DNA from: Manis javanica
Lineage: Eukaryota; Chordata; Mammalia; Pholidota; Manidae
Direction of reading: 5' to 3'
DNA: 64,000 nucleotides
Assembly: GCF_040802235.1 (NCBI RefSeq)
Contig: NC_133167.1
Location: 11,958,501 to 12,022,500, forward strand
Within the stretch, counting starts at the first letter, position 1, and the number at the start of each line of letters is the position of its first letter. Position numbers and translations under genes: made by a program. This document shows, piece by piece, positions 5,237 to 24,485 of the stretch. The notes beneath the pieces are model-generated. The model saw only the letters and a program-made list of their open reading frames with translations. It had not been told where the DNA came from and did no database searches.

Positions 5237-6949
5237 AAGTACATTTTGTGGGTTTTTTTAAATCATAAAAATATTCAAAGCTTAGTACAAAGTTAGAACA
5301 TATAGAAACATGGGCACATATAAAAAATATATTCTTTGTTAACAGTTTGATGTATTTCATCCTATGTTTTCAATGCAAAAAAATTTTATTTTTAAATAGC
5401 AAAATTCACAATGTTTATAAAATGTTTTCAAATAAAACCATACCATAAGGAAGTTTTCATCTTATATAGTCATATAAGCATCAGTTTTTCTGAATTTTCT
5501 TTTAATCAAAGAGCAAAGCATATATGTCATACAAAATTACCAACAAAAAAAAATCATCTGAACTTTTTTCTGATGTTGCAATGATCTGTTCTTCCTTCTT
5601 TTTGCTTTCTCCATTTAATACCACATGTTGTATGATAATTTATATAACACCCCCCCCCCTTAATTTGTTGATTTTCCAATATCTGGCTATTTTAAATAAT
5701 TCAGGAGGAAACATTTTTGTTCAAAAATATTATCCGCATTTCTAATTATTTTGTGGGAATATATTCTAAAAGGTAGAATTACTAGGCACAGGGAAAATGG
5801 CCCATGCAGGATCCATAGCACTGCACAGGATGAGAAGAGGAGAGTGTACACTGCCCAGGGAGAGCAGAGAACATACCCAGGCTACAGAGGCGCTGGTCGG
5901 TTGCTGTCAGAGGAGCTCGGCTGGGCTAGGACAGCACTCTATCTTTCACTGACAGTCGCAGAATGAGGCCCCCTCCAGCATTAAAAGTTGTTCACTCTTT
6001 CCAGGTGTATAAAATTACAAGTGCTGGGAAATGCTGCATCTTGCAGCGTCAAAGCACTGTAATTCCTGATAGTTCTGAGTAACCCACGCTGCTGAAATGA
6101 CCTATAAGACAAGCTGCAGTAATAGGAGCACATAAAAGAGCTCTGCTGATCGTAGAAGGTAAGAATTTTCTCCATGGCCCTAAATAATGACGAATAGTCA
6201 GATTGTCTCATTGAGTTCGCAGAAAATGATATAATCTCTAAGGTCTCACCGACTCTAAAATTCTGTGTGGTAATAATGTCATCTAATGGTTTTCCACCAT
6301 AATTCTGCTGGATACCTGGCCAATATAATTACGTCCTCCTCAAATTGTTTTGTGAAATGAGGTTGAATATATATATATACATTTATATAAAAATATTATC
6401 AGCAGATGGGGTTTTAGAAATATTCCTTACAAAATGTATATCTTCTAAAGAAAAGGGAAATTATTAGAACAACCAATTGAGAGCTCCAGTATAAAAATTC
6501 CAAACTCATGCTGTTTTATTTCCCTTTGGCTTTTATGTGAGTTGGTAGCTTCCTAGAAGTCTGCAGCTGTGATAAAAGATGCATTCGATTTTTTTTTATG
6601 AAGTTCACACTTTGTTTGCTAAGTGTTTAACTGGGGAATAGTGACTACATTGAAGCAAATAGTGTTCATCTTACCCTGCAGACCATTCTTTCCAATTACC
6701 CTCACTCAGATTTGTATTAAGGAGTTTAATGAACAGAAGCTACTATACATAGCATATAGTTATCAAGGAGTACAGACTGCACATGGGCTCTGAGAATTAG
6801 CAAGAAACCTCAATCTTTAAATGCCCTCAGAGGAACCCTGTTGTTCAAGTTTCTCAGTTTCCACAATTTCCTTCCATTCCAATGAATAGACCAATTAAGA
6901 CTTCCTCTGAAACCTATTCTCTTAGAGTGGTTTCATTTCCAAAGAAATA
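5237..6949. other. Unassigned, partly old LINE-like
   Basis: 5,250-5,790 has the wording of an antisense old LINE 3' end (for example 'ctaaaaggtagaattactagg'), but it is too diverged for a family call. 5,800-5,960 is a short GC-richer patch. A TA-rich low-complexity stretch is at 6,367-6,400. I see nothing else. Confidence 0.35.
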
Positions 6950-7056: not shown

Positions 7057-8040
7057 AAATAAGGAAGAAGTTCTGCAAAATGATGGGCTGAGAAATGGGG
7101 GAGCCACCTCATCCCCTCTATACATAGAGAAATGCTCAGTAAAGTATATTTCAAGAATTAAAATGTAAGCTAAGCTCAAAGCAAGACAGAAAAATATCCA
7201 GGTGACAAAACGAGTCAAGAAAACTCACAGCCTTAGAGGTAAATAAGAATTGAAACTCCATGGCTGGCCATCAAGATCGTGGAGCCAGATATAAATCAAG
7301 AAATGGGGTTCTGATGCCTGAAATGGAGTAGGGTTTGATATCAGAGAGCCAGGTTGGGACTTATTTCATTGAAATGAAATTTGGAAAAAATTTGACTGGC
7401 TCACAAATTGTAATTGCAAAATTTCCACTAGCTGGTGATGATCTTTGGCACAGAGACCATGTGTGGAAAGATTGTGACACAGCATTTTTAGGAGACATGC
7501 ATGCCTACTACATTTACAATGCTCCTGTGGAATTGAAACCTCAGGGAAAAAATGTAAAACCTTGCTTATATTTAATAACTTCATTTACCCAGACAGAAGT
7601 AACTCTGAAACTGCCCCCAGTGGGAGCTCTCCACAGTCCAAAGGACATGTCATTTTTAGAGGATATTTTCATAGAAACCGAAGCCATAGACAAATGCCAC
7701 AAAAATTTGAGTTAAGTCCAACATCAAGCAAGATTGATTAGAGGCCCTCCAAAGAAGACAATTGCACTGAGAATCTCAAATGTGGAATTTAAAAGAATCT
7801 TTGTAAATATATGCAAACTGTTCAGAGAGACAAATTAATGCCAAACAAAAGAGATCATGATACAAAACAATCAGATTGTTACAAATGAAAGAAGCATATG
7901 TCCTAGAAAAATATTTTTAAATGTGGATAATTTTTTAAAGTCAACAGAGGATAAAAAGTTAATTAGACATGGCTGAAGAGATAATTAATGAATTGAAGGC
8001 AGATAGGAAAAAGTTTTTAGGTTTCTTTCCAGTGGAACTT
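7057..8040 (+). mobile_element. Old L1 5' region / start of ORF1
   Basis: 7,950-8,020 has the order 'attagacatggctgaagaga', 'attaatgaattgaaggcaga', which corresponds to the ORF1 coiled-coil start of ancient mammalian L1s. The A-rich DNA upstream fits an L1 5' region. A 126-codon open frame at 7,335-7,715 lies inside it. It has no domain I recognise and no good splice or promoter context, so I treat it as chance or a relic rather than a gene. Confidence 0.5.
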
Positions 8041-8061
8041 GGAAAGGTATAAAAGTAATAA

Positions 8062-8275
8062 AGGATTCAAAGTGAACTAGATTTGAATTTGAATCTTCAC
8101 TTTACCACTTATTATCTGTGACTTTCAGAAAGTCATCTAAGCTGTATTTCAGTTTCCTCTTTTACAGATCTAGAACAGCAATGTATATATTATAGTATTT
8201 TTATAAAGATTAAATAAAGTAAGTGTAAACCATGCAATGCATTTCCTGGCACCTATTAGATACCCAGAAAGTTTT
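8062..8275 (+). mobile_element. MIR SINE
   Basis: Shows the MIR order: a 'tttgaatcttcactttaccactta' type core, then 'tcagtttcctcttttacag', then 'aagattaaataaagtaa', then 'ttcctggcacctattagata'. Tens of percent diverged, as expected for a pre-radiation mammalian SINE. Confidence 0.85.
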
Positions 8276-8374
8276 TCTTTTCCTTTCTCCCTTCTCTTTC
8301 TAACAACTGCTTATTGGACTTTTCTGAATACTAATAGAACATTTACAGTATGAGCATTAACTATGCGCACTCTT

Positions 8375-8530
8375 CTTTGCATTCATGTACCCAATAGTAG
8401 TTAAACCCTACAACTCTGTAGGATAGATAAATCTAGTTTATAGAATTAAAAAATGGGGCATATAAAATAATTTAAACACTCCTGGTCACAGTAGGTAGCA
8501 GAGACAGATATTTGACCTAGGACTATTACA
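8375..8530 (-). mobile_element. MIR SINE, reverse orientation
   Basis: The plus strand reads 'aaccctacaactctgtagga', then 'aatggggcatataa', then 'cctggtcaca', then 'agcagagacagatatttgac'. This is the reverse complement of the MIR body. Confidence 0.75.
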
Positions 8531-13385: not shown

Positions 13386-13426
13386 ATTTATTTATTTATT
13401 TTTTTTTTTTTTTTTTTTTTTTTTTT
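13386..13426 (-). other. Terminal poly(A) tail of the composite
   Basis: On the element's sense strand this is an A-run of about 28 (T-run at 13,399-13,426) continuing into AAAT repeats. A-tails of fairly young L1s often become patterned this way. It is the priming end of the insertion. Confidence 0.9.
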
Positions 13427-13749
13427 GAGAGGGCATCTCTCATATTTATTGATCAAATGGTTGTTAACAACAATAAAATTCAGTATAGGGGGGTCAATGC
13501 TCAATGTACAATCATTAATCCATCTCAAGCCTAATTCTCGTCAGTCTCCAATCTTCTGAAGCATAACGAACAAGTTCTTACATGGTGAACGAATTCTTAC
13601 AGAGTGAATAAATTCTTACATGGTGAACAGTACAAGGGCAGTCATCACAGAAACTTTCGGTTTTGATCATGCAATATGACCTATAAACCATCAGGTCAAA
13701 TATGAATATTCATTTGATTTTTGTACTTGATTTATATGTTGATCCCACA
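13427..13749 (-). mobile_element. ERV LTR, U3-R only
   Basis: About 323 bp starting with TG directly after a purine tract and ending at the poly(A). A poly(A) signal sits about 20 bases before the end. Near 13,565-13,630 there are three imperfect units of about 20-22 bp built on 'ttcttacatggtgaac', a small U3 tandem repeat. There is no U5, as expected if the copy came from an RNA that ended in R. Confidence 0.7.
13445..13450 (-). promoter_or_regulatory. Poly(A) signal AATAAA used by the composite
   Basis: The plus strand reads TTTATT, giving AATAAA on the sense strand about 20 nt before the poly(A). This is normal spacing. The signal belongs to the LTR part, not to L1. Confidence 0.8.
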
Positions 13750-13757
13750 TTTCTCCT
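13750..13757 (-). other. Retroviral polypurine tract
   Basis: The sense strand reads AGGAGAAA directly before the LTR's TG, preceded by an AAT-repeat run. A purine tract abutting the LTR is the plus-strand primer site of retroviruses and is not part of any L1 3' UTR I know. Confidence 0.7.
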
Positions 13758-14386
13758 ATTATTATTATTATTTTTATTTTTAATAAAATGCTGAAGTGGT
13801 AGGTAGATGCAAGATAAAGGTAGAAAACATAGTTTAGTGCTGTAAGAAGGCAAATGTAGATGATCAGATGATCAGGTGTGTGCCTATGGACTAAGTATTA
13901 ATCCAGGCTAGACAAGGGCAGCAAGACATCCACGGATGCAGAAGATTTCTCTCAAAGCAGGGGGGGTGAGGTTCTGAGCCTCACCTCTGTTGATCCCCAA
14001 ATTCTCACCTGATGGCCCCCCTGCGACTGTGCCTGTCTTAGGTTGTTCCTCCCTTGAGGAATCTTACCCGTCTCTGGCTAACCAGTCATCTTCCGGGGCC
14101 ATACAGGGAAATGTAAAGTTGGTAAGTGAGAGAGAAGCCATATTGTTTGCAAAGGTTAGCTTTTTACTTCTTTGCAGATTTATGCCCTGTGGCTTCTATG
14201 CCCAGCACTTGTCTCGAGGTATCTTTACCACCTGGAGGAATTATGATACTCGGTAAATTCGATATGAGGCACGAATTCTATTTAAAGTTTGTAATTAGGA
14301 AGGAAGAAGAAAAGCTATAGATGTAGCATATGAAGGAAACTTGGGAGGATTGATTATTTCTTTGACATATCTTCTTGTATAGTACC

Positions 14387-14760
14387 TTAAGTATGTATAG
14401 GTTTTAAACTACTAACTAATTTGCACACACATATTGACATAATAGGAATACGGTGACATAAACAAAGCAAATCTATAATCACCAGCCATCTCCAGTGAAG
14501 CCAAGAAAACCATTTAGGCACCCTAGGCATTTGTGAAAATTTATCTATGATATGATGGATATTTTCCAACTGTACTTGAACCATCAGACAAATTAAAGCA
14601 GCCCATTTCTGGGATCTGTTCACATCCCATATGTTCTTTTAACCATAGATAGTCTATAGTCATGAGATTTTGGGGTGCTACAACTTGCACCCCTCCCAAC
14701 TCCTGGTTGAGTTCCAACAGTACAGATCCAGTCAAATTCGTTGTCTCACTGTATGCACAT
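14387..14760 (-). pseudogene. ERV env transmembrane-subunit relic
   Basis: Two overlapping sense-strand frames carry the parts. The upstream one (to about 14,541) has a heptad-like stretch, then a QN-containing segment and two cysteines separated by seven residues, the layout of the TM immunosuppressive/CX6CC region. The second frame (14,623-14,387) has a tryptophan-rich stretch followed by a hydrophobic anchor and further cysteines. The reading frame breaks between them, and the whole surface subunit is absent. Non-functional. Confidence 0.6.
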
Positions 14761-14939
14761 GCCAGCCTAGACATCTCCCTCCTCCTTCTCATGGCAAGTC
14801 CAGGAGATGGTGGGCTGGATGCAGCCACAACCGCAGCATCGTCCGGATCCCTGTGGAGGCTTTTTGATGATCATCCCCCGGCACGAGTCCTCCAGAGAGT
14901 GCTGATGCCGGAAGCTCCTCCTCATATCGTATCTTAGTT

Positions 14940-15231
14940 CATTTTCTGGGTATCCAAGCTAGGCCTTGATCTTCTGCGTAGAAACAAACAGACCCTTTGC
15001 CCACACTTTGACATGCCCTCTATACCACTGTGCAGAACTCATAGGAGGTCAGCACACAGTAACTGCTTTTTTTTTTTTTTTTTTTAATTAAGAGAAAGGA
15101 ATATTATCAGAAAAGAGTACCTCCATAGCTGATCATCTGACACCCTTTAAGTGATCAACATTAAGGATATTTAAAGCATGCGTTGATCTTTGATTTACCA
15201 ATAGTTTTATCCTGTTAAGGAGTAATCCCCC
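14940..15231 (-). pseudogene. ERV integrase C-terminal relic
   Basis: The sense strand shows a segment like the ALxxLNxxxxxxxG helix of betaretroviral integrases near 15,165. It then shows a V-x-V-W-x-K-G stretch and, after a frame change, G-S-V-C followed by an A-W-I-P-type end and a stop near 14,943. A pure A-run (15,067-15,085) interrupts it. Stops and shifts make it dead. Confidence 0.6.
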
Positions 15232-15259
15232 TTTTCTTTCTTTCTTTTTTTTTTTTTTT
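15232..15259 (-). other. Internal L1 A-tail marking the L1/ERV junction
   Basis: The sense strand has A14 followed by GAAA repeats, directly after an AT-rich L1 3' terminus and directly before sequence reading as retroviral integrase. It marks where L1 sequence ends. Confidence 0.75.
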
Positions 15260-15601
15260 AAATTTTTAATCTACACTTACCTGAAGAATACTATGTTTAC
15301 TATGCTCTCCCCTATATCAGGTCCCCCCTAACAACCACATTACGGTTACTGTCCATCAGCTTAGCAAAATGTTGTAGAGTCACGACTTGTCCTCTCTATG
15401 TTGTGCAGCCCACCCTCCCCTTTCTCCCTCCCCCCCATGCATGCTAATCTTAATACCCCCCTTCTTCTTCCCCCCCCTTATCCCTCCCTGCCCACCCATC
15501 CTCCCCAGTTCCTTTCCCTTTGGTACCTGTTAGTCCATTTTTGGGTTCTGTAATTCTGCTGCTGTTTTGTTCCTTCAGTTTTTCCTTTGTTCCTATACTC
15601 C
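15260..15601 (-). other. L1 3' UTR with G-rich polypurine tract
   Basis: About 340 bp between the ORF2 stop and the A-tail. 15,410-15,520 is C-rich on the plus strand with several CCC runs, so G-rich on the sense strand. This is the potentially G4-forming tract found in L1 3' UTRs across mammals. A consensus-like splice donor (CAG/GTAAGT, plus-strand complement at 15,275-15,283) lies close to the 3' end. Confidence 0.8.
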
Positions 15602-18600
15602 TCAGATGAGTGAAATCATTTGGTATTTCTCTTTCTCCGCTTGGCTTATTTCACTGAGCATAATACTCTCCAGCTCCATCCATGTTGCTGCAAATGGTTG
15701 GATTTTTCCACTTCTTATGGCTGAGTAGTATTCCATTGTGTATATGTACCACATCTTCTTTATCCATTCATCTACAGATGGACATTTAGGTTGCTTCCAG
15801 TTCTTGGCTATTGTAAATAGTGCTGCGATAAACATAGGAGTGCATCTGTCTTTCTCAAACTTGATTGCTGCGTTCTTAGGGTAAATTCCTAGGAGTGGAA
15901 TTCCTGGGTCAAATGGTAGGTCTGTTTTGAGCATTTTGATGCACCTCCATACTGCTTTCCACAATGGTTGAACTAATTTACATTCCCACCAGCAGTGTAG
16001 GAGGGTTCCCCTTTCTCCACAGCCTCGCCAACATTTGTTGTTGTTTGTCTTTTGGATGGCAGCTATCCTTACTGGTGTGAGGTGATACCTCATTGTAGTT
16101 TTAATTTGCATTTCTCTGATAATTAGCGATGTGGAGCATCTTTTCATGTGTCTCTTGGCCATCTGTATTTCTTTTTTGGAGAACTGTCTGTTCAGTTCCT
16201 CTGCCCATTTTTTAATTGGGTTATTTGTTTTTTGTTTGTTGAGGCGTGTGAGCTCTTTATATATTCTGGACGTCAAGCCTTTATCAGATCTGTCATTTTC
16301 AAATATATTCTCCCATACTGTAGGGTTCCTTTTTGTTCTATTGATGGTGTCTTTCGCTGTACAGAAGCTTTTCAGCTTAATGTAGTCCCACTTGCTCATT
16401 TTTGCTGTTGTTTTCCTTGCCCGGGGAGATATGTTCAAGAAGAGATCACTCATGTTTATGTCTAAGAGGTTTTTGCCTATGTTTTTTTCCAAGAGTTTAA
16501 TGGTTTCGTGACTTACATTCAGGTCTTTGATCCATTTTGAGTTTACCTTTGTATATGGGGTTAGACAATGGTCCAGTTTCATTCTCCTACATGTAGCTGT
16601 CCAGTTTTGCCAGCACCATCTGTTGAAGAGACTGTCATTTTGCCATTGTATGTCCATGGCTCCTTTATCAAATATTAATTGACCATATATGTTTGGGTTA
16701 ATTTCTGGGGTCTCTAATCTGTTCCACTGGTCTGTGGCTCTGTTCTTGTGCCAGTACCAAATTGTCTTGATTACTATGGCTTTGTAGTAGAGCTTGAAGT
16801 TGGGGAGTGAGATCCCCCCTACTTTATTCTTCTTTTTCAGGATTGCTTTGGCTATTCGGGGTCTTTGGTGTTTCCATATGAATTTTTGAATTATTTGTTC
16901 CAATTCATTGAAGAATGTTGCTGGTAATTTGAGAGGGATTGCATCAAATTTGTATATTGCTTTCGGCAGGATGGCCATTTTGACGATATTAATTCTTCCT
17001 AGCCATGAGCATGGGATGAGTTTCCATTTATTAGTGTCCCCTTTAATTTCTCTTAAGAGTGACTTGTAGTTTTCAGAGTATAAGTCTTTCACTTCCTTGG
17101 TTAGGTTTATTCCTAGGTATTTTATTCTTTTTGATGCAATGGTGAATGGAATTGTTTTCCTGATTTCTCTTTCTATTGATTCGTTGTTAGTGTATAGGAA
17201 AGCTACAGATTTCTGTGTGTTGATTTTGTATCCTGCAACTTTGCTGTATTCCGATATCAGTTCTAGTAGTTTTGGAGTGGAGTCTTTAGGGTTTTTTATG
17301 TACAGTATCATATCATCTGCAAATAGTGACAGTTTAACTTCTTCTTTACCAATCTGGATTCCTTGTATTTCTTTGTTTTGTCTGATTGCCGTGGCTAGGA
17401 CCTCCAGTACTATGTTAAATAACAGTGGGGAGAGTGGGCATCCCTGTCTGGTTCCCGATCTCAGTGGAAATGCTTTCAGCTTCTCGCTGTTCAGTATAAT
17501 GCTGGCTATGGGTTTATCATATATGGCCTTTATTATGTTGAGGTACTTGCCCTCTATTCCCATTTTGCTGAGAGTTTTTATCATGAATGGATGTTGAATT
17601 TTGTCAAATGCTTTTTCAGCATCTATGGAGATGATCATGTGGTTTTTGTCTTTCTTTTTGTTGATGTGGTGGATGATGTTGATGGATTTTCGAATGTTGT
17701 ACCATCCTTGCATCCCTGGGATGAACCCCACTTGGTCATGGTGTATGATCCTTTTGATATACTGTTGAATTCTGTTTGCTAATATTTTATTGAGTATTTT
17801 TGCATCTACGTTCATCAGGGATATTGGTCTGTAATTTTCTTTTTTGGTGGGGTCTTTGCCTGGTTTTGGTATTAGGGTGATGTTGGCTTCATAGAATGAG
17901 TTTGGGAGTATTCCCTCTTCTTCTATTTTGTGGAACACTTTAAGGAGAATGGGTATTATGTCTTCTCTGTGTGTCTGATAAAATTCCGAGGTAAATCCGT
18001 CCGGCCCCGGGGTTTTGTTCTTGGGTAGTTTTTTGATTACTGTTTCAATTTCTTTGCTTGTAATTGGTTTGTTTAACTTTTGTGTTTCTTCCTTGGTCAG
18101 TCTTGGGAGGTTGTATTTTTCTAGGAAGTTGTCCATTTCTTCTAGGTTTTCCAGCTTGTTGGCATATAGGTTTTCATAGTAGTCTTTAATAATTCTTTGT
18201 ATTTCTGTGGAGTCTGTCGTGATTTTTCCATTCTCATTTCTGATTATGTTGATTTGTGTTGACTCTCTTTTTCTCTTAATAAGTTGGGCTAGAGGCTTAT
18301 CTATTTTGTTTATTTTCTCAAAGAACCAGCTCTTGGTTTCGTTGATTTTTGCTATTGTTTTATTCTTCTCAATTTTGTTTATTTCTTCTCTGATCTTTAT
18401 TATGTCCCTCCTTCTGCTGACTTTAGGCCTCATTTGTTCTTCTTTTTCCAGTTTTAATAATTGTGATGTTAGACTATTCATTTGGGATTGTTCTTCCTTC
18501 TTCAAGTGTGCCTGGATTGCTATATACTTTCCTCTTAAGACTGCTTTCGCTGCATCCCACAGAAGTTGGGGCTTAGTGTTGTTGTTGTCATTTGTTTCTA

Positions 18601-19444
18601 TATATTCCTTGATCTCTATTTTGATTTGTTCATTGATCCATTGATTATTTAGTAGCATGTTGTTAAGCCTCCATGTGTTTGTGAGCCTTTTTGTTTTCTT
18701 TGTAGAATTTATTTCTACTTTCATACCTTTGTGGTCTGAAAAATTGGTTGGTAGAATTTCAATATTGTGGAATTTACTGAGGCTCTTTTTGTGAGCTAGT
18801 ATGTGGTCTATTCTAGAGAATGTTCCATGTGCACTTGAGAAGAATGTATATCCTGTTGCTTTTGGATGTAAAGTTCTATAGATGTCTATTAGGTCCATCT
18901 GTTCTAGTGTGTTGTTCAGTGCCTGTGTGTCTTTACTTATTTTCTGCCCGGTGGATCTATCCTTTGGGGTGAGTGGTGTGTTGAAGTCTCCTACAATGAA
19001 TGCATTGCAGTCTATTTCCCTCTTTAGTTCTGTTAGTATTTGCTTCACATATGCTGGTGCTCCTGTATTGGGTGCATATATATTTAGAATGGTTATATCC
19101 TCTTGTTGGACTAAGCCCTTTATCATTATGTAGTGGCCTTCTTTATCTCTTGTTACTTTCTTTGTTTTGAAGTCTATTTTGTCTGATATTAGTACTGCAA
19201 CCCCTGCTTTCTTCTCACTGTTGTTTGCCTGAAATATGTTTTTCCATCCCTTGACTTTTAGTCTATGCTTATCTTTGGGTTTAAGGTGAGTTTCTTGTAA
19301 GCAGCATATAGATGGGTCTTGCTTTTTTATCCATTCTATTACTCTATGTCTTTTGATTGGTGCATTAAGTCCATTTACATTTAGGGTGACTATTGAAAGA
19401 TATGTACTTATTGCCATTGCAGGCTTTAGATTCGTGGTTACCAA
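15602..19444 (-). CDS. LINE-1 ORF2 protein (endonuclease-reverse transcriptase)
   Basis: An uninterrupted 1280-aa frame, close to the usual 1275 or so. ORF2p nicks genomic DNA at TTTT/AA-like sites and copies L1 RNA from the nick. The N-terminal AP-type endonuclease (about residues 10-245) keeps N22, E51 in Q-E-T-H, the G-D-F-N-T segment and S-D-H near 236-238. The reverse transcriptase has F-A-D-D at 708-711 and the R-Q-G-C-P-L-S-P-L block. The C-terminal zinc-knuckle-like motif C1138-x3-C1142-x7-H1150-x4-C1155 is complete. M10 is an alternative start that aligns better with short-start relatives. It lies 168 bp downstream of ORF1 on the same transcript, so translation should be reinitiated. 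No stop or frameshift: this copy looks coding-competent. Confidence 0.97.
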
Positions 19445-19612
19445 AGGTTCAAGGTTAGCTTCTTTAGTATCTTACTGCCTAACTTAGCTCGCTTATTGAG
19501 CTGTTATATACACTGTCTGGAGAGTCTTTTCTTCTCTCCCTTCTTATTCCTCCTCCTCCCTTCTTCATATGTTGTGTGTTTTGTTCTGTGCTCTTTTTAG
19601 GGGTGCTCCCAT
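19445..19612 (-). other. L1 inter-ORF spacer
   Basis: 168 bp with stops in all frames between ORF1 and ORF2. The ORFs do not overlap. Confidence 0.85.
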
Positions 19613-20536
19613 CTAGAGCAGTCCCTGTAGGATGCCCTGTAGAGGTGGTTTGTGGGAAGCAAATTCCCTCAGCTTTTGCTTGTCTGGGAATTGTTTGATC
19701 CCACCATCATATTTAAATGATAGTCGTGCTGGATACAGTATCCTTGGTTCAAGGCCCTTCTGTTTCATTGCATTAAGTATATCATGCCATTCTCTTCTGG
19801 CCTGTAGGGTTTCTGTTGAGAAGTCTGATGTTAGCCTGATTGGTTTTCCTTTATAGGTGACCTTTTTCTCTCTAGCTGCCTTTAAAACTCTTTCCTTGTC
19901 CTTGATCCTTGCCATTTTAATTATTATGTGTCTTGGTGTTGTCCTCCTTGGATCCTTTCTGTTGGGGGTTCTGTATAATTCCATGGTCTGTTCGATTATT
20001 TCCTCCCCCAGTTTGGGGAAGTTTTCAGCAATTATTTCTTCAAAGACCCTTTCTATCCCTTTTCCTCTTTCTTCCTCTTCTGGTATCCCTATAATACGAA
20101 TGTTTTTCCTTTTGTATTGGTCACATATTTCTCTTAGTGTTGTTTCATTCCTGGAGATCCTTTTATCTCTCTCTATGTCAGCTTCTATACGTTCCTGTTC
20201 TCTGGCTTCTATTCCTTCAATGGCCTCTTGCATCTTATCCATTCTGCTTATAAATCCTTCCAGGGATTGTTTCACTTCTGTGATCTCTTTCCTGACATCT
20301 GTGATCTCCTTCCGGACTTCATCCCACTGCTCTTGCATTTTTCTCTGCATCTCATCCCACTGCTCTTGCATTTTTCTCTGCATCTCATCCCATTGCTCTT
20401 GCATTTTTTTCTGCATCTCTGTCAGCATGTTCATGATTTTTATTTTGAATTCTTTTTCAGGAGGACTAGTTAGGTCTGTCTCCTTCTCAGGTGTTGTCTC
20501 TGTGATCTTTGTCTGCCTGTAGTTTTGCCTTTTCAT
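19613..20536 (-). CDS. LINE-1 ORF1 protein (RNA-binding chaperone)
   Basis: An intact 307-aa frame, slightly shorter than the roughly 340 aa seen in humans. ORF1p trimerises through an N-terminal coiled coil and coats L1 RNA in cytoplasmic particles. Residues 41-73 are three near-perfect 11-residue repeats of the type MQ(K/R)KMQEQWDE. Two VRKEIT(D/E) heptads follow (74-87), then a longer coiled coil to about 140. The RRM runs from about 143 (N-I-R-I-I-G-I-P) to 225 and the C-terminal domain to the end, with conserved basic residues such as those at R-R-E-W near 250. The start M is the first in frame after the 5' UTR. DNA repeats of 33 bp underlie the 11-mers, showing recent slippage. Confidence 0.96.
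   Translation of the reverse strand: MKRQNYRQTKITETTPEKETDLTSPPEKEFKIKIMNMLTEMQKKMQEQWDEMQRKMQEQWDEMQRKMQEQWDEVRKEITDVRKEITEVKQSLEGFISRMDKMQEAIEGIEAREQERIEADIERDKRISRNETTLREICDQYKRKNIRIIGIPEEEERGKGIERVFEEIIAENFPKLGEEIIEQTMELYRTPNRKDPRRTTPRHIIIKMARIKDKERVLKAAREKKVTYKGKPIRLTSDFSTETLQARREWHDILNAMKQKGLEPRILYPARLSFKYDGGIKQFPDKQKLREFASHKPPLQGILQGLL
20318..20416 (-). repeat. Three tandem 33-bp units inside ORF1
   Basis: 'atcccactgctcttgcattt' recurs at 20,321, 20,354 and, with one change, 20,387 on the plus strand, exactly 33 bp apart. Each unit encodes 11 residues of the ORF1 coiled coil, so expansion keeps the frame. Confidence 0.95.
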
Positions 20537-20900
20537 GGTGATAGAGATAGTCTGCAGAGCTGGTACAAGTGACCGCTGGAAGAGCTTCCCTTCTTGTTGG
20601 TTTGTAGCCTTTTCCTGGGAGAATAGCGACCTCTAGTGGCTTGTGCTGGGCAGCTGTGCGCAGACAGGGCTTCTGCTTCCTGCCCAGTTGCTTTGGGGTT
20701 TATCTCCACTGTTGCTGTGGGCTTGGCCTGGCTGGGGCTGTTCCTCCAAAATGGTGGAGCCCCGTTAGAGGGGGAGCAGCCAGGAGACTATTTATCTCCG
20801 TAAGGGGCCTCTGTGCTCCCTGCTGCCCAGGGGGTTAGAGTGCCCAGAGATCCCCAGATTCCCTGCTTCTGGTCTAAGTGACCTGTCCTGCCCCTTTAAG

Positions 20901-21880
20901 ATTTCCAAAAAGCACTCTCCAAACCAAAACAACAACAGCAACAATGAGAGAGGGAACAGAAAGGAAAAAAAAAAGAAAAAACACGCGATTTTTTTTTTTT
21001 TTTCCTCAGGTGCCGGTCCCAGGCACCCGCGCACTGGTCCTGCTGCCCTGTCTCCCTAGCACCAGGGTCCCTGTCCTTTCAAGGCTTCCAAAAAGCACCC
21101 ACCCACCGGTCCCGCAGGGAAGGAACGCTCAATATTCTTTGTCCTCAGGCACTGGTCCCACGCACCCGCTCACCAGTCCTGCCGCCCTGCCTCCCTAGCA
21201 CCGGGGTCCCTGTCCCTTCAAGGCTTCCAAAAAGCACTTGGCAAAAAGAGAGAAAAAAAAGGGGAAAAACGCGCGACTTCTTCCGTCCTCAGGTGCTGGT
21301 CTCAGGCACCCACCCACCGGTCCCACAGGGAAAAATGCGGGATATTCTTTGTCCTCAGGTGCCGGTCCCAGGCACCCGCTCACCAGTCCCGCCGCCCTGC
21401 CTCCCTAGCACCGGGGTCCCTGTCCCTTTTAGGCTTCCAAAAAGCACTCGCAGAAAAGAGAAAAAAAAAGGGGAAAAACGCGCGATTTCCTCTGTCCTCA
21501 AGTGCCGGTCTCAGGCACCCGCCCACCGGTCCCGCAGGGAAAAACGGGGGATATTCTTTGTCCTCAGGTGCCGGTCCCAGCCACCCGCTCACCAGACCCG
21601 CCACCGTGCCTCCCTAGCACTGGGGTCCCCGTCCCTTCAAGGCTTCCAAAAAGCGCTTGCCAAAAAGAGAAAAAAAAAAAGGGGAAAAACGCGCGACCTC
21701 CTCCGTCCTCAGGCACCGGTCTCAGGCACCCGCCCCCAGGTCTTGCAGGGAGAAACGCGGGATATTCTTTGTCCTCCGGCGCTGTTCCCAGGCACCTCCT
21801 CACCGGTCCCGCCACCCTGCCTCCCCAGCAACGGGGGCCCGTCCCTCTAAGGCTTCCAAAAAGCGCTCGCCAAAAAAAAA
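20901..21880 (-). repeat. Tandem ~210-bp monomers in the L1 5' UTR
   Basis: The landmark 'ggcttccaaaaagc' on the plus strand starts at 21,083, 21,222, 21,432, 21,641 and 21,851, with a degenerate copy at 20,901. Steps are 139, 210, 209 and 210 bp, so one unit is internally deleted. Each unit also carries a 'caccggtccc' block, a 'gatattctttgtcctc' block and, in most, an A-rich run followed by 'cgcgcga'. Three to five CpG-containing promoter-like units are thus stacked. Confidence 0.93.
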
Positions 21881-22112
21881 AAACTGCTCCGGTTTCTCTC
21901 CACCCGCCGGGAGCCGGGGGGAGGGGCGCTCGGGTCCCGCCGGGCTGGGGCTTGTATCTTACCCCCTTCACAAGGCGCTGGGTTCTTGCAGGTGTGGATG
22001 TGGTCTGGATGTTGTCCTGTGTCCTGTGGTCTCTATTTTAGGAAGATTTTTCTTTGTTATATTTTCATAGCTCTATGTGTTTTTGGGAGGAGATTTCCAC
22101 TGCTCTACTCAC

Positions 22113-22124
22113 GCCGCCATCTTG
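22113..22124 (-). promoter_or_regulatory. YY1-like site at the L1 5' end
   Basis: The minus strand reads CAAGATGGCGGC within about 15 bases of the element's first base. The same placement in human L1 directs accurate transcription initiation. The function here is inferred. Confidence 0.75.
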
Positions 22125-22135
22125 GCTCCCGCCCA

Positions 22136-24289: not shown

Positions 24290-24476
24290 ATTGCTTCTTG
24301 GCCTTTTGACTAAGATCAAGTGTAGTAGCTGTTCTTAATCAGTTTAATATCAGAAACATCCTCTATCTGAGGAAGATAAATTAAATGGATTTTTGCGGCA
24401 GGAAGTTGGAGTAGAAGCTTACTCTGCCCACTTCATGCATAGACCTGGTATTGCAGCACTTCCAGGAACAGTGCAA
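24290..24476 (+). pseudogene. U2 spliceosomal snRNA pseudogene, full length
   Basis: About 187 bp, against 188 nt for U2. It keeps 'cttggccttttgactaagat', 'caagtgtagtagctgttctt', the remnant 'atcagtttaatatcagaaac', 'ttaaatggatttttg' and the 3' 'gacctggtattgcag' hairpin region. Several substitutions and an extra base disturb stems, and a U2-type proximal/distal promoter element is not visible upstream. It is therefore a pseudogene rather than a working copy. Confidence 0.95.
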
Positions 24477-24485
24477 ATATCTTCT

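Follow-up and report, generated by a model that had tools for sequence, protein, structure and literature searches.

An L1 family of Manis javanica with a 3' end likely captured from an endogenous retrovirus

Within a 64,000-nucleotide stretch of the Manis javanica genome (NCBI RefSeq assembly GCF_040802235.1, contig NC_133167.1, positions 11,958,501 to 12,022,500 of the forward strand; this whole stretch is hereafter called the window), we analyzed an L1 retrotransposon that is followed on its own strand by a long tail and a terminal poly(A). We consider it likely that this element represents a young and abundant L1 family that terminates in the 3' end of an endogenous retrovirus (ERV), in other words, a family with a captured retroviral terminator. 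The junction between L1 and tail, searched in the 2.56-Gb genome as 14 bases of the L1 end, 15-45 arbitrary bases and 13 bases of the tail start, has 4437 exact matches (2191 + 2246), as against 0 for the reversed pattern, and is not a product of chance. Judging from the shared junctions, the common 3' end and the near-identity of some copies, the family is probably active today.

Structure of the element and its copies

The features of the element are as follows (UTR, untranslated region; LTR, long terminal repeat; TM, envelope transmembrane protein).

13399..22134, minus strand: whole chimeric element (L1, putative retroviral tail and poly(A)), with a junction common to thousands of copies
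21095..21883, minus strand: monomers of the L1 5' UTR, 3.8 tandem copies of 209 bp with 86% matches (TRF)
19613..20536, minus strand: ORF1p, 307 aa, intact (open frame and Pfam)
15602..19444, minus strand: ORF2p, endonuclease and reverse transcriptase, a single open frame starting from TTG (open frame and Pfam)
15260..15601, minus strand: L1 3' UTR, with ATTAAA at 15270 and AGTAAA at 15301, without AATAAA (sequence)
15232..15259, minus strand: junction run rich in A and G, interpreted as the earlier A-tail of the L1 (sequence; similar runs in the junctions of other copies)
13427..15231, minus strand: tail of 1805 nt, apparently retrovirus-derived (sequence; env TM match)
14912..15231, minus strand: relics resembling an integrase C-terminus, in two frames (recognized by eye)
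14544..14726, minus strand: putative TM relic, 61-aa reading (PDB match)
13427..13749, minus strand: LTR U3-R-like end, about 323 nt, after the short purine run AGGAGAAA, without U5 (sequence reading, approximate boundary)
13445..13450, minus strand: AATAAA poly(A) signal, 18 nt upstream of the common poly(A) site (sequence)
13399..13426, minus strand: poly(A) tail, A28 (sequence)

The L1 part begins at position 22134 (minus strand) with a GGGCGGGAGCCAAGATGGCGGC-type L1 5' end, and its products contain the domains characteristic of LINE-1, namely L1 RBD (PF02994, E 4.5e-25) and dsRBD (PF17490, E 3.7e-20) in ORF1p, and endonuclease (PF03372, E 3.4e-24) and reverse transcriptase (PF00078, E 6e-47) in ORF2p, all detected with Pfam. 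From the translation, the first ATG of ORF2 would lie at about 19417. The N-terminal part of ORF1p includes 3.1 near-identical 33-bp (11-aa) repeats (20319-20419, minus strand), presumably corresponding to a coiled coil. An earlier note on this DNA, made by reading the sequence, had described an intact L1, an internal A-tail at 15,232-15,259 and about 1.8 kb of same-strand tail with its own AATAAA and a final poly(A). Our analysis agrees with each of these: ORF1 is intact and ORF2 open, an A/G-rich run follows the L1 3' UTR, and the AATAAA (13450-13445) precedes a poly(A) that starts from 13426. The note had added that a retroviral terminator would have become part of a live L1 family if other copies had the tail too; that they have it is borne out by the junction matches, by all 30 loci fetched, by the identical 3' end of nine copies and by divergences down to 0.2%, as detailed below. 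The 3' end of the tail reads ...AATAAATATGAGAGATGCCCTCTC, immediately before the poly(A), and an extra AATAAA at 13778 is followed by no poly(A). The target-site duplication of the window copy is merely an A/T-rich 11-mer and is not decisive; no further copy of the tail was found within the window. A DNA search of the genome with tail positions 13427-13800 gave 0 candidates, not even the window copy itself; since words that are very common are passed over in this search, its empty result does not speak against other copies.

A 17-base pattern of the L1 3' end alone, three bases longer than the L1 part of the junction pattern, matched the genome 5025 times (2505 + 2520; 2 matches for the reversed control), and 84 of the first 100 listed L1 3' ends are also among the listed junction matches. 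Thirty junction loci, the first listed and all on one contig, were fetched to about position 8413 of the element, about 1.5 kb into the tail; every one of them continues from L1 into tail, with identities of 92.8-99.6%. One of these, L032, begins to align at element position 6508, close to the ORF2 end. Another, L028, misses about 400 bases inside the tail (element positions 7993-8401; around 2621 of L028), which could reflect either a splice-like deletion in RNA or a genomic deletion. A 200-kb region near the window contains two more tail copies. The first, L008, shares the junction, has 97.5% identity and is cut short in ORF2; the second, L018, has 93% identity, is truncated within the tail and is the sole tail-only copy seen.

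The 3' ends were read in nine copies (the window element, L008, L018 and L051-L056, the last six picked among the least diverged), and in 9/9 the same terminal base lies 18 nt past the AATAAA and is followed by an A-tail, which in L051-L056 is a pure tract of 15-38 A with mutually different flanks. The end of L028 was unmatched by the exact end string, although its BLAST alignment still spans to the element end. Target-site duplications, read by eye outside the tail, measure 13 bp in L008 and about 16 bp in L018, and together with the poly(A) end and the 5' truncation of both copies they complete the set of LINE-1 insertion hallmarks. L1 3' transduction produces a characteristic layout of L1, internal A-run, downstream DNA and new poly(A), with target-site duplications outside, and this is the arrangement found in L008, where non-L1 sequence lies between an internal A-run and the terminal poly(A), inside the duplications.

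Divergence of the two halves was compared for the window element and the fetched loci other than L028 and L032 (28 of 30). The mean pairwise divergence is 1.69% in the L1 part and 2.07% in the tail, and the two sets of values are correlated with r 0.935, which is reached in 0 of 2000 permutations; the closest copy, L048, has diverged from the window element by 0.20% (L1) and 0.27% (tail). Since the divergences are both correlated and low, the L1 part and the tail have been propagated jointly, and not long ago. Over the terminal 1.17 kb of ORF2, divergence amounts to 1.01, 1.35 and 2.06% at codon positions 1, 2 and 3 (no significance test), and the corresponding values are 2.15, 1.94 and 2.10% for the three phases of the tail and 2.36% for the L1 3' UTR. 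This codon-position pattern suggests constraint on ORF2 during the expansion and no coding function for the tail.

Retroviral similarity of the tail

The similarity of the tail to retroviruses is best seen in the putative TM relic. In a search of 177,635 distinct PDB sequences with E up to 10, the TM piece matched two chains, 5h9c_A (E 2.7e-4) and 4jpr_A (E 2.8e-4), and none else. Their names, 'Envelope glycoprotein gp95' and 'ASLV fusion TM', point to an avian (ASLV-type) alpharetroviral TM, the first being a protein that we take to be avian alpharetroviral. The match is moderate yet specific, and on sequence grounds it argues for an env relic. Upstream of it, pieces of the tail resemble the end of a retroviral integrase, as recognized by eye. 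Pfam returned no match for four tail pieces, and in the PDB search one of the integrase-like pieces had no match, and the other gave an unrelated sialidase at E 1.2. If both the TM and the integrase readings are right, the parent ERV would have been env-deleted, because a complete surface envelope would not fit into the gap between the two. The purine run before the U3-R-like end has the counterpart AAGGGAGAAA in L018; both the polypurine tract and the LTR boundaries are putative assignments made by eye. The tail also contains another internal A-run, 19 bases long (15085-15067, minus strand), slightly different in L008, which could be a second seam or an A-rich tract that has grown. We set aside its interpretation as a serial-transduction seam, the integrase-like reading seeming, by eye, continuous across it.

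We regard it as very improbable that the tail is instead a native L1 3' UTR of unusual length or some unrelated host sequence of non-retroviral origin. The empty Pfam searches and the integrase-like pieces lacking a credible PDB match would fit such a sequence, as would the exact tail patterns, which found no match in the viral and GTDB collections, but the TM piece matches retroviral TM only, and the four older L1s that we examined nearby (4/4) end without the tail. Comparison of the TM piece and ORF2p with viral contigs confirmed no related loci. The earlier note had called the tail betaretrovirus-like and had listed env relics in it. The env relics are retained, in the form of one short PDB match to TM, and the betaretroviral affinity is left unconfirmed, the closest TM being alpharetroviral: this is the sole protein match, pol is unmatched, and a library as small as PDB does not allow a decision for or against a betaretroviral pol. 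A complete lack of ERV similarity, on which the same note would have abandoned its reading, did not occur, the basis for this being that one short env match.

Possible route of capture

The following scenario, a single 3' transduction, would account for the structure of the family. A progenitor L1 with a weak terminator, devoid of the terminal AATAAA usual for older L1s, would have entered an ERV in the same orientation, its target being an A-rich site in the apparent end of pol. Transcription of this L1 would have run on across what was left of env TM and across U3 as far as the poly(A) signal of the LTR, and the read-through RNA would have been retrotransposed as one unit. Descendants would retain the tail because termination now occurs at the LTR signal, and the old terminator would not have been restored once this signal took over. 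That the steps came in this order, that transcripts extend to the LTR signal and that the family depends on this signal are all predictions from sequence. In the L1 3' UTR of the window element, ATTAAA closely precedes the former A-tail and AGTAAA lies 31 bases upstream of ATTAAA; among the four older L1s, the terminal AATAAA is exact in two, AGTAAA in one and degenerate in one.

Template switching offers a different, rather unlikely, origin. During target-primed reverse transcription of polyadenylated ERV RNA, the L1 reverse transcriptase would jump at an A-rich stretch onto an L1 RNA, at its poly(A), and the chimera made in this one step would found the family. The A/G-rich run that separates the L1 end from the tail, and in which the junction lies, suits either mechanism, and L1 template-switch chimeras are known in human and mouse, according to the available part of one report (PMC6500023). 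However, such an event requires that the enzyme jump to an L1 RNA that is both full-length and competent, whereas 3' transduction requires read-through only, and the missing AATAAA favours read-through. Both mechanisms, each already proposed in the earlier note, leave an A-rich junction, and the present data do not separate them. Still less probable, in our opinion, is that the tail came first, as an independent L1-mobilized SINE-R-like retroposon composed of an ERV end and poly(A), and that one of its copies subsequently received an L1 insertion, either internally or immediately upstream. The tail-only copy L018 could be such a retroposon, but it can equally be a 5'-truncated member of the family, with its start inside the tail and an L1-type target-site duplication.

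Beyond the capture itself, we lean slightly towards a stronger statement, namely that a retroviral LTR U3-R has permanently replaced the native 3' terminator of a whole L1 lineage that is autonomous. As L1 copies mostly arrive 5'-truncated, many new insertions of the lineage would then be largely ERV sequence and look like LTR fragments, and U3 would be scattered through the genome without retroviral activity.

Several points weigh against the capture of a retroviral terminator. The ERV source of the tail must be considered unproven. The env match has a moderate score of 24.5 bits, and the two integrase-like pieces yielded nothing credible in either database. Further, 16 of the first 100 listed L1 3' ends are absent from the junction list. 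Such absence is possible in tailed copies, because in L008 the tail is present, yet one changed base makes the junction pattern fail. Some RNAs may still end at the old L1 end, because ATTAAA and AGTAAA persist there. Finally, the terminal 40 bases of the L1 3' UTR align only loosely with the older L1s, of which four copies were included.

Related systems and other features of the window

The closest relative in principle is SVA (SINE-R-VNTR-Alu) of hominoids, which is mobilized by L1 and has a 3' end from HERV-K with poly(A) after it, as described in the accessible portion of PMC7353768. The window element likewise appears to combine an ERV-derived 3' end and poly(A) with movement by the L1 machinery. 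The likeness concerns the 3' end only: SVA is composite and non-autonomous, whereas the window element is an autonomous full-length L1 with ORF1 and ORF2 open, and has neither the hexamer-Alu-VNTR-SINE-R layout nor the non-autonomy of SVA.

Like L1 3' transductions, this family has an internal A-run, cargo and a new poly(A), with target-site duplications outside in L008. The L1 3' transductions known to us are single loci or small lineages with a unique flank, whereas this family has at least 4437 copies, one junction and a cargo formed by an apparent ERV end with an LTR poly(A) signal, its own AATAAA being absent. Both 3' transduction and template-switch chimeras are presented as known for L1 in the part of PMC6500023 available to us. 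The same text describes a chimeric L1/MaLR-LTR test sequence, with a partial ORF2, put into mouse Axin1 by CRISPR. As in the window element, an L1 piece is joined there to an ERV LTR, a product that template switching or transduction can give, but the Axin1 chimera is engineered from a partial ORF2, whereas the window family consists of a full-length L1 amplified naturally. A better-known means of renewal in L1 lineages is turnover of the 5' UTR, in which, for example in perissodactyls, a lineage gains a non-homologous regulatory sequence and then expands (PMC5872511, in the portion available); that exchange concerns a promoter at the 5' end, in contrast to a terminator at the 3' end here.

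For pangolins, the available section of PMC12584738 describes ERV-Gamma.b9-Mpen, which contains an almost complete L1 between ENV and the 3' LTR. This is the type of locus able to start such a transduction, but it belongs to a gamma lineage and is one locus described as an insertion, with no mobilized family mentioned in that section. PMC4643047, whose subject is a different virus, namely a gammaretrovirus present as two pangolin copies, was set aside. Among the papers listed in searches of the open-licence literature, with subscription papers outside their scope, there was no report of an autonomous L1 family that ends in a retroviral LTR.

Promoter swaps are known for L1, and a retroviral end riding on the L1 machinery is known from SVA; this L1 family would join both. 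An L1 with a retroviral terminator in thousands of copies allows a direct test of the sequence needs at the L1 3' end, and the same family lets one ask whether a stronger poly(A) signal gives an advantage. It also carries a warning for annotation: in such genomes, LTR fragments may actually derive from L1 insertion, and counts and dates of 'solo LTRs' could be wrong.

Elsewhere in the window, the tRNA search found none, and a 126-aa open frame (7335-7715, plus strand) has no Pfam match at E 0.01. The only Rfam match in the window is a full-length U2 spliceosomal RNA (24290-24481, plus strand, 131.3 bits), situated some 2.2 kb away from the 5' end of the L1 and probably representing a U2 retrocopy or gene.

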